DNA of 64,000 nucleotides, taken from NCBI RefSeq assembly GCF_000314005.1, contig NZ_JH980292.1, positions 310,001 to 374,000 on the forward strand, written 5' to 3'. The stretch's first letter is position 1, and every line of letters starts with the position of its first letter. This DNA comes from Spirulina subsalsa PCC 9445 (GTDB lineage Bacteria; Cyanobacteriota; Cyanobacteriia; Cyanobacteriales; Spirulinaceae). Made by a program: the position numbers and the translations under genes. Positions 9,065 to 29,998 of this stretch are shown here, one piece after another. A model generated the notes under the pieces. That model did not search any database, was not told the DNA's origin, and saw only the letters and a list, made by a program, of their open reading frames with translations.

Positions 9065-9144
9065 GGCGCGTTCCTTCGGGATGGCTCCCTACTTCCGTCT
9101 CCCAAGAGGGGGACTCTCAACTTAGAGTCTTTTGGGGATGAACG
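9065..9144 (-). promoter_or_regulatory. Glutamine riboswitch (glnA RNA type)
   Basis: On the minus strand the leader reads CGTTCATCCC, a variable stem-loop, GGGAGACGGAAGTAGGG and finally CCCGAAGGAACGCGCC. The P1 pairing CGTTC/GAACG, the core ACGGAAGTAGG and the closing CCGAAGGAACG are the hallmarks of the glutamine aptamer described for cyanobacterial gifB leaders, where glutamine raises expression. It ends about 30 bases before the gifB ribosome-binding site. Confidence 0.85.
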
Positions 9145-9159
9145 ATTGTTTTTGTTTCT

Positions 9160-26263: not shown

Positions 26264-27274
26264 ATGAGTAAAAAGCGAGTTCTTTCAGGAGTTCAACCCA
26301 CCGGGAATTTACATTTAGGCAACTATTTAGGGGCAATTCGGAACTGGGTGGAGTCTCAACAGGACTATGACAATTATTTTTGTGTGGTGGATTTACACGC
26401 CATTACAGTTCCCCATAACCCCGCCAGCTTGGCGGCTGATACTTATGCGATCGCCGCCCTCTATTTAGCTTGTGGCATTGACCTACAATATTCTACAATT
26501 TTCGTCCAGTCCCATATTTCCGCCCACAGTGAACTCGCTTGGTTATTGAACTGTGTCACCCCCATTAATTGGCTAGAACGGATGATTCAGTTTAAAGAAA
26601 AGGCGATTAAACAGGGGGAAAATGTCAGCGTGGGCTTATTGGATTATCCCGTGCTGATGGCGGCCGACATTTTGCTCTATGATGCAGATTTAGTCCCGGT
26701 GGGAGAAGACCAAAAGCAGCATATTGAGTTAACACGGGATATTGTCATTCGCATGAATGACCAATTCGGCAAACCGGAGCAACCAGTGTTAAAACTCCCG
26801 GATCCCTTAATTCGCAAGGATGGAGCGCGGGTGATGAGTTTGACCGATGGCAGCAAGAAAATGTCGAAGTCGGATCCCTCAGAGCAGAGTCGGATTAACC
26901 TGTTGGATAGTCCCGATGCGATCGCCAAAAAAATTAAACGCTGCAAAACCGATCCCATCAAAGGCCTAGAATTCGACAACCCCGAACGCCCCGAATGTAA
27001 TAACCTCTTAACCCTTTATGCCTTACTCTCTGGGCAAAGTAAAGAAGCCGTCGCCCAAGAATGTCAAGATATGGGCTGGGGGCAATTTAAACCCCTGTTA
27101 ACAGAAACCACCATTGCGGCACTAGAACCCATCCAAAGGAAATATCAGGACATTATGGCAGATCCGGGCTATTTAGACGGTATTTTACGGGAAGGTCGCC
27201 AGAAAGCCGAACAGAGCGCCCAAGTCGTGTTAGAGCGAGTCAAAACCGCGTTAGGCTTTTCCCTGCCCTTGTGA
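26264..27274 (+). CDS. trpS: Tryptophanyl-tRNA synthetase
   Basis: TrpS charges tRNA-Trp. The 336-residue protein has the class I HIGH-type motif PTGNLHLGNYLGA near residue 12-24, the tryptophan-site DLHAIT and LMAADILLYDADLVPVGEDQKQH, and KMSKS (about 197-201) in GSKKMSKSDPS. Length and order are normal for bacterial TrpS. The frame opens with ATG after GACGC; no strong ribosome-binding site is visible. It converges with the patX-like gene. Confidence 0.95.
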   Translation: MSKKRVLSGVQPTGNLHLGNYLGAIRNWVESQQDYDNYFCVVDLHAITVPHNPASLAADTYAIAALYLACGIDLQYSTIFVQSHISAHSELAWLLNCVTPINWLERMIQFKEKAIKQGENVSVGLLDYPVLMAADILLYDADLVPVGEDQKQHIELTRDIVIRMNDQFGKPEQPVLKLPDPLIRKDGARVMSLTDGSKKMSKSDPSEQSRINLLDSPDAIAKKIKRCKTDPIKGLEFDNPERPECNNLLTLYALLSGQSKEAVAQECQDMGWGQFKPLLTETTIAALEPIQRKYQDIMADPGYLDGILREGRQKAEQSAQVVLERVKTALGFSLPL

Positions 27275-27287
27275 AGAGAAAAACAGC

Positions 27288-27312
27288 AAAAAGGGACACT
27301 CTCTTGTGTCCC
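27288..27312 (-). terminator. Terminator of the patX-like gene
   Basis: GGGACAC (27293-27299) pairs with GTGTCCC (27306-27312). On the minus strand it is followed by TTTTT (27292-27288), 25 bases past the stop at 27337. Confidence 0.8.
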
Positions 27313-27336
27313 TGATGATTGGATTACAAATGGATT

Positions 27337-27606
27337 TTAAGCCATTTCTTTCGGGGTTTTTTCTTCGAGTCGTCCACTGCCGCGCTCCTTAGTTGCATCA
27401 AACTCTTTATGGCCTTTATAACGGTTCACTCGGCCACTGCCGCGATCGCTAGAGCAGTAATCGCTACAAGTGTCAGACCCCGCGCTAGGCTCGGCTGAAC
27501 TGATTTGCAGAGGTTCGCGCACCGTGCTAATTTCAGTTAGTCCTGCCTTCACAGCCGGAACAATTGATAGTAAGCTCAGGAGAACTACTGTAATGTATGT
27601 GTGCAT
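27337..27606 (-). CDS. patX: PatX-like secreted precursor with two RGSGR motifs
   Basis: PatX proteins are small exported precursors containing the pentapeptide RGSGR, the signal that binds HetR and sets heterocyst pattern; they accompany HetR in many filamentous cyanobacteria. This 89-residue protein has a signal peptide (MHTYITVVLLSLLSIVPAVKA, cleavage near A21), a polar linker with two cysteines (Cys47, Cys51), and RGSGR twice: at 55-59 (SSDRGSGRVNRY) and 75-79 (TKERGSGRLEE). Two copies, the second not at the extreme C-terminus, are unusual. A strong terminator follows, and an 11-bp inverted repeat lies just upstream. hetR is not in the window. Low codon bias against chance: both motifs use the same CGC GGC AGT GG(C/A) CGA codons. 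Confidence 0.75.
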   Translation of the reverse strand: MHTYITVVLLSLLSIVPAVKAGLTEISTVREPLQISSAEPSAGSDTCSDYCSSDRGSGRVNRYKGHKEFDATKERGSGRLEEKTPKEMA

Positions 27607-27617
27607 AGCAAATTTAA

Positions 27618-27648
27618 TCCGTGTCAGGTTTCTATTTCCTGATACGGA
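27618..27648 (-). promoter_or_regulatory. Inverted repeat upstream of the patX-like gene
   Basis: TCCGTGTCAGG (27618-27628) and CCTGATACGGA (27638-27648) match as an inverted repeat at 10 of 11 positions with a nine-base spacer. It begins 12 bases before the start codon. It could be an operator or a leader hairpin; there is no T-run to make it a terminator. Confidence 0.5.
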
Positions 27649-27707
27649 GTTTCTTGCTATTCATCAGGACAAATTTTTCACATCCCCTGATCTCTAGTTC
27701 TCAAAAA

Positions 27708-28553
27708 TTAAGCTCCGCGCAGAGATTTTTCTAAAGTGGGGGGATCTATGCCTAATTCCGTCAGCAACACTAAAGCGGGACAAAACTTTTCTGGGTGGGG
27801 GAGTAACTGCTTCCAGAGACGAGTCACCCCTAACAAGAGATGCTCACTACCGATCAAAATATGACCCGATGCGATCGCCTCCTCCAGAGAAAACTGTAAA
27901 ACTTGTTGAGCCATCGGGGAAAATGCCATAATCCCCCCTTTTTGAGCCTCTAATTTACTCTTGACAAAAGACCGTGCTTGTGCTAAATCTAAACCCGCCA
28001 ACTTCAAAGCCCGTGCCGCCCCCCCGCTGCCTTCCCCCAACAACCCTAAAAGAATATGTTCCGTCTCTATCTTCTCCTGTTTTAAGCGCATCGCCTCCAT
28101 CCGTGCCAACAGCAACACCTGCACCGCTTTTCCCCCCAAGCGCTCATAAATATGATGGGGAATAAACGCCTCTAAATCCTCTTGTTGGGGGTTTTTGTGG
28201 AGAATTTGACCTAACACAAACCCCTCATTATGTTGAGTAATCTTCTGCCAGTCCACAATATGCTGTTTCACACAACATTCTGTATAAAAAAAGGCAATTA
28301 AATCCTCCAACACTTCTGTATTCAGGGAATAAAACACATATTGTTTATCTTTTCTCACCCGGACAATTCCCTGTTGTTTTAACTTATCTAAATGACGAGA
28401 AATGGCAGAATTGGAAATCTTAACTCGTTCAAGCAGTTCTGCTACTGTAATTTCGTGGGGGTACTTTTTCACCAGAAACCGCACAATAAACAAGCGGACG
28501 GGTGAGCCTAAAGCCCCCAACAAACCAGCATAGCGTGTTGTACTTGATTTCAT
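27708..28553 (-). CDS. ArsR-type regulator fused to Clp N-terminal domain
   Basis: A 281-residue fusion. Residues about 5-95 form an ArsR-family winged helix (LLGALGSPVRLFIVRFLVKK...NSAISRHLDKLKQQGIVRVRKDKQYVFYSL). Residues about 140-275 form a double Clp N repeat (AVQVLLLARMEAMRLKQEKIETEHILLGLLGEG and QVLQFSLEEAIASGHILIGSEHLLLG). Clp N domains bind adaptors and substrates of ClpA/C. No AAA+ domain is present. A cysteine pair (CC near 93) could sense metal or redox. The role is not known; it may tie transcription to Clp proteolysis. It lies upstream of the patX-like gene in the same direction. Confidence 0.75.
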   Translation of the reverse strand: MKSSTTRYAGLLGALGSPVRLFIVRFLVKKYPHEITVAELLERVKISNSAISRHLDKLKQQGIVRVRKDKQYVFYSLNTEVLEDLIAFFYTECCVKQHIVDWQKITQHNEGFVLGQILHKNPQQEDLEAFIPHHIYERLGGKAVQVLLLARMEAMRLKQEKIETEHILLGLLGEGSGGAARALKLAGLDLAQARSFVKSKLEAQKGGIMAFSPMAQQVLQFSLEEAIASGHILIGSEHLLLGVTRLWKQLLPHPEKFCPALVLLTELGIDPPTLEKSLRGA

Positions 28554-28813: not shown

Positions 28814-29998
28814 CTAGACCGAAGTCCCCGACAGAACGCCATTACTGGGCTGTTTGACCACGGGCGCACCGACCGCAGTTAATCCACGCTGTTTTACTAT
28901 TATTGAAGCAGCAACATCCCGATCCACGGTGTAGCCACATTCAGAGCAAGAGTGAACCCTTTGAGAGAGTTCTTTCTTCCCTGTATGGGTTCCACATTCA
29001 GGACAAACTTGAGAGGTATAGTCTGGATTTACCTTGGCAAAATATGTATCCGTTTGAGAACAAACATATTCCAAAATAGTAAAGAATTGACCTAAACCCA
29101 TATCTAGAGACTGCTTACAGAATAGTCCTCTACTCCAAGCTGTGAAGTTAATATCTTCAACAAATACCATCCCGACTCCATCACAGAGTTGATGGGCTAA
29201 CTTGAAGTGGTAATCCTTTCTTCTGTTGGCTACAGCTTCATGTAATAGAGCGATCCGATGCTGTAGTTTCTGCCATTTATTGGACCCTTTGTTTTTATTT
29301 TTAAGCCTTCTTTGTAGTAATTTAATCTTACGCCGTGCTTTATCTAAAAACTTCGGCCTAGGAAGAATCAAACCGTCGGAAGTTGCCAGCATACTTTGAA
29401 TCCCAACATCAATCCCCAAAGCGTGACCATGAGGTATTGGGGTTGGGATATTAACATCAAGCTCAATTGCTAAGTTGACATAGTAACCCGATGCTTTCTT
29501 GATTACTTGAACTTGTTTGATCTTAAAACCCTCTGGAATATCCCGTGACTTGACAAACTTAACTTCCCCCAATAGAGGCATCTTTAGCTTGTTACCATTG
29601 ACTTCAATTCTGCTACTAACTAAATTAAAAGACTTCATGTTCCTCTTGAAGCGAGGAAAACCTAGTCCCTTGCTTTTCATGTCGTTAAACGCCCGATCTA
29701 ATTTCCGCAATGTTTGCTGCATCGCTTGGGCATTACCAGACTTAAGGAAATCGTTAGTCTTTTTAGCTTGGGTTAGATTGGCAGATTGAGTATGGTAGTT
29801 AGGATATTCAAAGGGAGCAACAATATATTCAGAACGAATAGAGCAAGCGTTAACCTGACAACTACGACTGTTATACCAAAGCTTTCTTTGAGCCAAAGCA
29901 TAGTTCCAAACAGATTGGCAGACAGTTAAATTCAATTCGATCTTCTCTGTCTGCTCTTTGGTTGGAATTATCTTATAGTTGTAAGTAAGGTTAAGCAT
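28814..29998 (-). CDS. tnpB: TnpB RNA-guided endonuclease
   Basis: TnpB is the RuvC-type nuclease of IS200/IS605 elements and ancestor of Cas12; guided by an omega RNA it cuts the empty donor site and favours retention of the element. The 394-residue protein has an N-terminal wedge/REC-like region (N-terminus to ~190), RuvC-I GIDVG with Asp197, RuvC-II FVEDINF with Glu281, a CPEC...CSEC zinc finger (Cys332, 335, 351, 354) and RuvC-III DRD with Asp361. All catalytic acids are present, but the usual DRDxNAA reads DRDVAAS. It looks intact. Confidence 0.92.
   Translation of the reverse strand: MLNLTYNYKIIPTKEQTEKIELNLTVCQSVWNYALAQRKLWYNSRSCQVNACSIRSEYIVAPFEYPNYHTQSANLTQAKKTNDFLKSGNAQAMQQTLRKLDRAFNDMKSKGLGFPRFKRNMKSFNLVSSRIEVNGNKLKMPLLGEVKFVKSRDIPEGFKIKQVQVIKKASGYYVNLAIELDVNIPTPIPHGHALGIDVGIQSMLATSDGLILPRPKFLDKARRKIKLLQRRLKNKNKGSNKWQKLQHRIALLHEAVANRRKDYHFKLAHQLCDGVGMVFVEDINFTAWSRGLFCKQSLDMGLGQFFTILEYVCSQTDTYFAKVNPDYTSQVCPECGTHTGKKELSQRVHSCSECGYTVDRDVAASIIVKQRGLTAVGAPVVKQPSNGVLSGTSV

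Follow-up and report, generated by a model that had tools for sequence, protein, structure and literature searches.

PatX proteins, known from Anabaena/Nostoc PCC 7120 and further cyanobacteria that have HetR, share an export-type N-terminus, an RG(S/T)GR motif, the presence of hetR and a DIF1-like box about 60 nt ahead of the start codon, for which the distance limit is 69 nt upstream. PatS is a peptide of 13-17 aa with one RGSGR motif at its end and no export signal, and HetN, which also carries RGSGR, is described as ketoacyl-reductase-like. Tandem copies of one signal peptide behind a signal peptide are found in yeast prepro-alpha-factor and in neuropeptide polyproteins, and multi-core cyanobactin precursors hold several core peptides in one cyanobacterial precursor. 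The PatX-HetR pair has been called an ancient patterning system of multicellular bacteria.

The DIF1 element (TCCGGA) has been reported as a patS/patX promoter element (PMC7761841; PMC7377430). Fusions in E. coli showed that the Nostoc PatX signal sequence drives export, and Nostoc genetics together with cleavage in an E. coli reporter identified PatP as the peptidase that matures PatX (PMC12756182). The same report describes binding of HRGTGR to HetR and no HetR interaction of signal-less PatX in a two-hybrid test, and its authors suggest necridia or filament fragmentation as the process controlled (PMC12756182). On the receptor side, PatS6 (ERGSGR) is bound in a cleft of the HetR hood domain with a Kd of 12 nM; binding is abolished by E253A, and the Kd is 91 nM for E254A, 427 nM for D256A, 2252 nM for D270A and 1626 nM for D278A (PMC4649674). 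For the first PatS6 residue the side chain is irrelevant and the free amine matters, R223 lies near the C-terminal carboxyl group, an N-terminal extension is expected to reduce affinity, and the hood dimer takes two PatS6 (PMC4649674). The free-amine, carboxyl and extension data in that report imply that HetR wants a freed XRGSGR.

The window analyzed here is a 64,000-nt stretch of the 5.32 Mb, two-contig genome of Spirulina subsalsa PCC 9445. The original prediction described, on its minus strand, a PatX-like protein with a signal peptide, RGSGR motifs at residues 55-59 and 75-79 and a terminator of its own, and both motif positions proved correct. The features of the locus are as follows.

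27664..27669, minus strand: DIF1-like box, TCCTGA, at -63
27618..27648, minus strand: inverted repeat TCCGTATCAGG-N9-CCTGACACGGA, in the leader that separates the DIF1-like box from the start codon
27337..27606, minus strand: patX-like gene with two RGSGR motifs, an 89-aa ORF with an ATG start
27544..27606, minus strand: signal-peptide-like N-terminus, residues 1-21, from the sequence by eye and the alignment consensus
27454..27468, minus strand: CxxxC pair, C47 and C51, directly ahead of the first motif, in 8/11 aligned family rows
27430..27444, minus strand: first RGSGR, residues 55-59, in the context SSD-RGSGR-V
27370..27384, minus strand: second RGSGR, residues 75-79, in the context TKE-RGSGR-L, which includes ERGSGR, the PatS6 hexapeptide
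27292..27313, minus strand: terminator-like hairpin 3' of the gene, 8 pairs followed by TTTT

The full translation is MHTYITVVLLSLLSIVPAVKAGLTEISTVREPLQISSAEPSAGSDTCSDYCSSDRGSGRVNRYKGHKEFDATKERGSGRLEEKTPKEMA. Its N-terminus, MHTYITVVLLSLLSIVPAVKA, looks by eye like a Sec signal peptide with a probable cut after AVKA, and it is similar to the MRxYxSxxLSSLL start that forms the alignment consensus of other PatX proteins. The hairpin (27313-27292) agrees with the predicted terminator and is weak by itself, as one was found against 0.6 expected in shuffles. When the ORF was compared with that of the sister genome G001, we counted 8 synonymous and 5 nonsynonymous differences outside the motifs and 2 and 0 inside them; therefore, it behaves as coding DNA.

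PatX-like identity is supported by this shared N-terminus, by the DIF1-like box, one mismatch away from DIF1, and by a series of relatives that runs from single-motif to multi-motif proteins. The same genome encodes HetR (HetR_C domain, E = 3.3e-44). The protein scores 13.2 bits against the cut-off of 30 of the NCBIfam PatX model (NF047413), a curated threshold that carries no biological definition, and a Pfam and NCBIfam search of it gave no match above a cut-off. In Oscillatoria PCC 10802, the same model gives 28.7 bits to a single-motif, hetR-linked gene (below the cut-off) and 69.1 bits to a six-motif gene (above it), which indicates that the threshold fails to track biology across lineages. 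A comparison with 50,697 phage records gave no match at E <= 0.1. The Spirulina protein differs from described PatX in having two conserved motifs instead of one, both internal rather than terminal, in the CxxxC ahead of the first motif, in the inverted repeat downstream of the box, and in the distance of about 150 kb between its gene and hetR. With PatS it shares the exact ERGSGR of its second unit, yet at 89 aa and with an export-type N-terminus it is no PatS; HetN is set apart by its description.

The exact TCCGGA is absent from the -63 place in the window and occurs at -61 in the relative G008. Among 172 distinct PatX-like genes, whose proteins were chosen without use of the box, 135 have TCCNGA between -67 and -55, compared with 0.7% in base shuffles. 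Within -92 to -45, TCCNGA is present in 39/42 multi-motif genes; the exact TCCGGA was seen in 8/42 of these and in 57/130 single-motif genes. In G240, a genome discussed below, the DIF1 box is degraded.

The inverted-repeat pattern matches the Spirulina genome once, at patX, and with up to 3 mismatches it occurs at one place, again patX, in 4/6 family genomes searched. The exceptions are G008, where the arms are the same but the gap is 10, and G005, where they are altered; a reversed control of the pattern gave one match each in G005 and G007. More broadly, inverted repeats scoring at least 8 were found in 12/82 non-redundant patX leaders (0.5% in base shuffles), mostly centered near -24, and six of the twelve come from Spirulina's own family. 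The arms differ by lineage while their complementarity is kept (CCGTATCAGG/CCTGACACGG, ATCAAGTA/TACTTGAT, TGAATCACT/AGTGATTCA). With a transcription start some 35 nt beyond the box, the left arm would overlap the -10 region, which would point to a DNA operator. The repeat was also considered as the described HetR site, gggN5ccc (PMC4649674), and rejected, because its arms are 9 apart.

Using the Spirulina two-motif protein (P0001) as a query, we found matches in 11 of the 13 genomes of the family, and an alignment profile added a twelfth, G002. All twelve encode a PatX with 2 to 4 motifs; in the remaining member, G004, which has HetR, neither P0001 nor two profiles found a PatX. Nine of the twelve proteins have two motifs, G008 has an RGCGR plus two RGSGR, G009 has three, and G007 (taken to be strain ESFC-1) has four, three of them within a TKERGSGRLDGQ repeat. 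Judged from these sequences, the repeated motif is a trait of the family, and the question raised by the original prediction, whether duplication is common in the lineage, is answered positively by these 12/13 genomes and by further families described below.

We think it probable that the Spirulina protein is an alpha-factor-like PatX polyprotein that would release several HetR-inhibiting XRGSGR hexapeptides. The precursor would be exported and cut by a periplasmic peptidase (PatP in Nostoc), each unit would yield one hexapeptide, in Spirulina DRGSGR and ERGSGR, and these would re-enter cells and free HetR from DNA, so that repetition of the unit might give more inhibitor molecules per transcript. 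Since HetR grips the amine of a free N-terminus through E254 and D256 and has R223 by the free C-terminus, internal units would have to be cut at both ends, and a lone unit at the very C-terminus would need one cut. In favor of this reading are the PatX-like start, the two conserved RGSGR motifs, the DIF1-like box and an intact HetR inhibitor site, all in the same genome. Against it stand the score of 13.2 bits against a cut-off of 30, G004 with HetR and no PatX found, an 11-unit PatX in G240 without HetR, and the report that effects of a patX deletion in the non-heterocystous Leptolyngbya BL0902 are largely hetR-independent (PMC11298460). The likeness to alpha-factor and neuropeptide polyproteins is an analogy of layout without homology: theirs is eukaryotic dibasic processing, while release from the Spirulina precursor is what we infer. 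Cyanobactin precursors, in turn, lead to modified natural products made with dedicated enzymes, not to HetR signals.

The rival that survives best holds that only one motif, probably K-E-RGSGR, is released and used, the other being a remnant or spacer. The contexts of the two motifs do differ, as the first mostly follows the CxxxC pair and the second follows K73, invariant across the 11-row family alignment; K-[EA]-RGSGR is found in 12/12 PatX-bearing family genomes and ERGSGR, letter for letter, in 10/12. Moreover, the first motif has become RGCGR in G008, and some arrays contain decayed copies. However, the first motif is kept as RG[SC]GR in 12/12 genomes, with 164 synonymous and 11 nonsynonymous pairwise codon differences, all 11 from the S-to-C change in G008, whereas the five codons before it have 33 and 274. 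The second motif in order has 203 and 0, and the three codons after it 22 and 148. We therefore regard a single working motif as unlikely, while granting it a real minority chance.

The polyprotein reading depends on HetR as the receptor. hetR, whose absence would have counted against the original prediction, is present: the HetR_C domain was found once in the Spirulina genome, about 150 kb from patX, in a protein of 299 aa whose alignment with solved HetR structures is gap-free. It is 74% identical to the HetR of a structure that we take to be the Anabaena one, and all six PatS6-contact residues (R223, E253, E254, D256, D270 and D278) are kept. The residue numbers agree with those of PMC4649674. 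The closest named record, HetR of Spirulina subsalsa FACHB-351, is 98% identical, and the next 80%.

Among 43 genomes checked (the family plus genomes with multi-motif matches), 41 have HetR. The two without are G012, which is 82% complete, and G240, which is 99% complete and in which neither domain nor protein search found HetR; a gap in its 320-contig assembly is a possible cause. As an observation apart, G240 (L056/L220, L395, L399) combines its 11-unit PatX with two further single-motif PatX-like genes and no HetR found. Contact residues are intact in 31/35 HetRs from the family and the multi-motif genomes. Three of the 35, from G004, G007 and G008, carry E254T. HetR of the 17-unit genome G446 (L368) carries D278N and an acidic stretch of about 30 residues inserted after helix 12 and ahead of strand 4, in the loop beside the PatS6 N-terminus; it is the sole D278N and the sole long acidic loop among the aligned HetRs. 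In a second set of 75 loci, which includes some of the same genomes, 70 are intact and two are too short to judge, with E254T in two (ESFC-1 itself and L200) and E254T/D256N in one (Mastigocoleus testarum).

These data also bear on whether PatX in filaments that lack heterocysts has a signaling target different from HetR, which the repeats would then serve. The HetR-independent transcriptome effects in Leptolyngbya BL0902 (PMC11298460) and G240, with its 11 units and no HetR found, point that way; the presence of HetR in 41/43 genomes, the inhibitor site kept in 31/35 sequences and the standing of RGSGR as a known HetR ligand point the other way. We give this alternative a small though appreciable chance. 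It is very improbable that the protein works uncut, as a multivalent ligand that links both inhibitor clefts of one HetR dimer or joins several dimers. The binding of two PatS6 per hood dimer (PMC4649674) and the 2 to 17 units of these proteins would suit such a ligand, but HetR contacts the free N-terminal amine and extension is expected to weaken binding (PMC4649674), signal-less PatX gave no two-hybrid interaction with HetR (PMC12756182), and the precursor seems to be exported while HetR acts on DNA inside the cell. Finally, an unrelated secreted protein with RGSGR by chance or slippage might fit the score below the NCBI cut-off and the third RG[ST]GR in the window's open frames (three seen, one of them in a 42-codon frame outside the patX-like gene, against 0.24 expected when all window frames of 40 codons or more are counted), and was rejected as having a negligible probability, because a pair within 89 aa is expected at 4.5e-5 from the residue make-up of those frames, the pair is conserved in 12/13 genomes with synonymous drift, and the PatX-like start and DIF1-like box accompany it.

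Precursors with several motifs are found well beyond the family. The NCBI PatX model matched above its cut-off in 57/386 genomes of the phylum, and below it in 1/14 control genomes; the best 30 of its matches, all from family f6, which we take to be heterocyst-formers, have one motif each. A profile of the family PatX (A1) matched at E <= 0.1 in 108/388 genomes of the order, and a broader one of 22 rows (A2) at E <= 0.5 in 293/388, many of these matches being weak. We inspected a partial sample of the profile matches, many chosen for long frames or several matches, so that the numbers given next should not be taken as frequencies; several of the retrieved matches contained no RGSGR frame at all. 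Multi-motif PatX-like precursors were seen in 8 families of the order, Spirulina's own (f1) included, and in 2 named records, and the series of relatives comprises 1, 2, 3, 4, 5, 6, 11 and 17 units. The longest arrays belong to f17, with 17 RGSGR units in a 48-bp tandem repeat in G446 and 11 in G240. In f50 there are six units in the genomes taken to be Oscillatoria PCC 10802 and Prado101 and five in the one taken to be O. princeps; three f11 genomes have 5, 4 and 4; in f58, G486 and G423 have four and three more genomes have three; and G458 (f46) has four. Three units also occur in f50 genus g158 and f17 genus g167, and two in f50 genus g170, in f4 (g48, g187) and in G638 (f7). The named records, reached through HetR, are Leptolyngbyaceae SM2_5_2 with two units and Synechococcales GL140_1 with three.

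By eye, the repeat units seem unrelated across lineages (KSDFQSFDDGRGSGRI, KSEDARGSGRVENTPDA, LELAQAPEILxPELSYRGSGR, NPDDDDSRGSGRFTTNQNLNFVADGK, HQLLAENSESEESAHRGSGRKEKESTGEEAQAK and the TKERGSGRLDGQ of ESFC-1), which argues for separate expansions. On a HetR tree of 51 rows, 6 state changes are needed and supported branches force only 2; sampling was deliberately rich in multi-motif genomes, and 13 heterocystous rows were labelled single with their own PatX unread. Within arrays, all differences between the counted copies are silent (in L056, for example, 121 synonymous and 0 nonsynonymous), a zero that is partly built in, as the copies were picked by motif. Decayed copies are present as well: RSSDR in L056, RDSGR twice in L075 and two altered ends in L074. 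In a related observation, the first unit in the PatX of L055/L146 (Kastovskya adunca by L146) has decayed to HRGSDRREF and the second, CHRGSGRREFC, is intact; this PatX is perhaps a former two-unit form.

A multi-motif gene adjoins hetR in ESFC-1, G008, three f11 genomes, G638 and the two named records (L199 and L200), and the patX at that place has a single motif in several genomes, among them Arthrospira PCC 9108 and Okeania SIO2C9. Oscillatoria PCC 10802 combines a hetR-linked single-motif patX with another single-motif gene and the six-unit gene. In multi-motif proteins, RGSGR is followed by I, L, V or F in 105/154 motifs, a tally in which related arrays are counted many times, and in single-motif proteins by R, K or the protein end in 99/121; the C-terminal cut of internal units may therefore differ. 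Separately, L093 and L094 (G660 and G633; f6) contain a short PatS-like ORF with two RGSGR and no export signal, MMVFFDCERGSGRVDAVMFLSDDRGSGRIDTMMNTNS. In L119, L120 and L121 (f10, g22), two small export-type genes are neighbors, with RGSGR in one and RGCGR near the end of the other; RGCGR recurs in G008 and L243/L247.

Extending the polyprotein reading, we tentatively propose, and would not be surprised to see revised, that non-heterocystous filaments repeatedly made PatX a tandem polyprotein of up to 17 units, a bacterial counterpart of alpha-factor precursors, in which the number of units would set the dose heritably and in places be accompanied by a weakened HetR site (D278N and an acidic insertion at 17 units; E254T at 3-4 units). 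That high copy number compensates for a weak HetR site is speculation. The sole D278N and sole long acidic loop among aligned HetRs do fall in the genome with 17 units, and 3-4 units accompany E254T in G007, in G008 (RGCGR counted) and in L200. However, Mastigocoleus testarum has an E254T/D256N HetR and a single-motif PatX, G004 combines E254T with no PatX found, and the site is intact in G451, G462, G484 and G500, which have 5-6 units. The idea that many ligands offset a weak receptor is an attractive speculation with very few cases and a counter-example.

The NCBI PatX model already covers the six-unit Oscillatoria protein at 69.1 bits. A literature search for multiple, two or repeated RGSGR gave no match; the PatX-defining survey (Elhai and Khudyakov 2018, 10.1111/mmi.14003), which may already mention repeated motifs, lay outside its scope. 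The available text of PMC7761841, PMC12756182, PMC11298460 and PMC9284123 mentions no repeated motif. A search for multi-copy peptide pheromone precursors in bacteria likewise gave no match. Natural precursors with 1 to 17 units amount to a ready-made dose series and, with internal units that would be cut on both sides, to a test of maturation.

Spirulina is a coiled, non-heterocystous filament of the Spirulinaceae that makes no heterocysts. Its multi-motif gene is the single PatX-like gene found in the genome by the broad profile A2, of which the Spirulina protein is itself one row (E 1.1e-16). A DNA-pattern search of the genome for RG[ST]GR gave at least 173 + 145 matches, compared with at least 218 + 248 in a reversed control, and was uninformative, so that further PatS- or HetN-like genes are possible. 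With a sole PatX found and no heterocysts, Spirulina is a clean case, one that lets the older, non-heterocyst role of the peptide be asked about directly.

The gene lies between trpS (26264-27274, plus strand) and a gene for an ArsR-type HTH fused to a Clp N-terminal domain (Clp_N; 27708-28553, minus strand), the latter lying immediately 5' of patX in the two Spirulina genomes. Both neighbors adjoin patX in the sister genome (L003) too, and neither was found at the other 34 short patX loci compared. Elsewhere in the window, an IS605 OrfB/TnpB-type protein with a Cas12f-like TNB domain is encoded at 28814-29998 (minus strand), and a glutamine riboswitch (Rfam RF01739, 48.4 bits) is located at 9065-9146 (minus strand).
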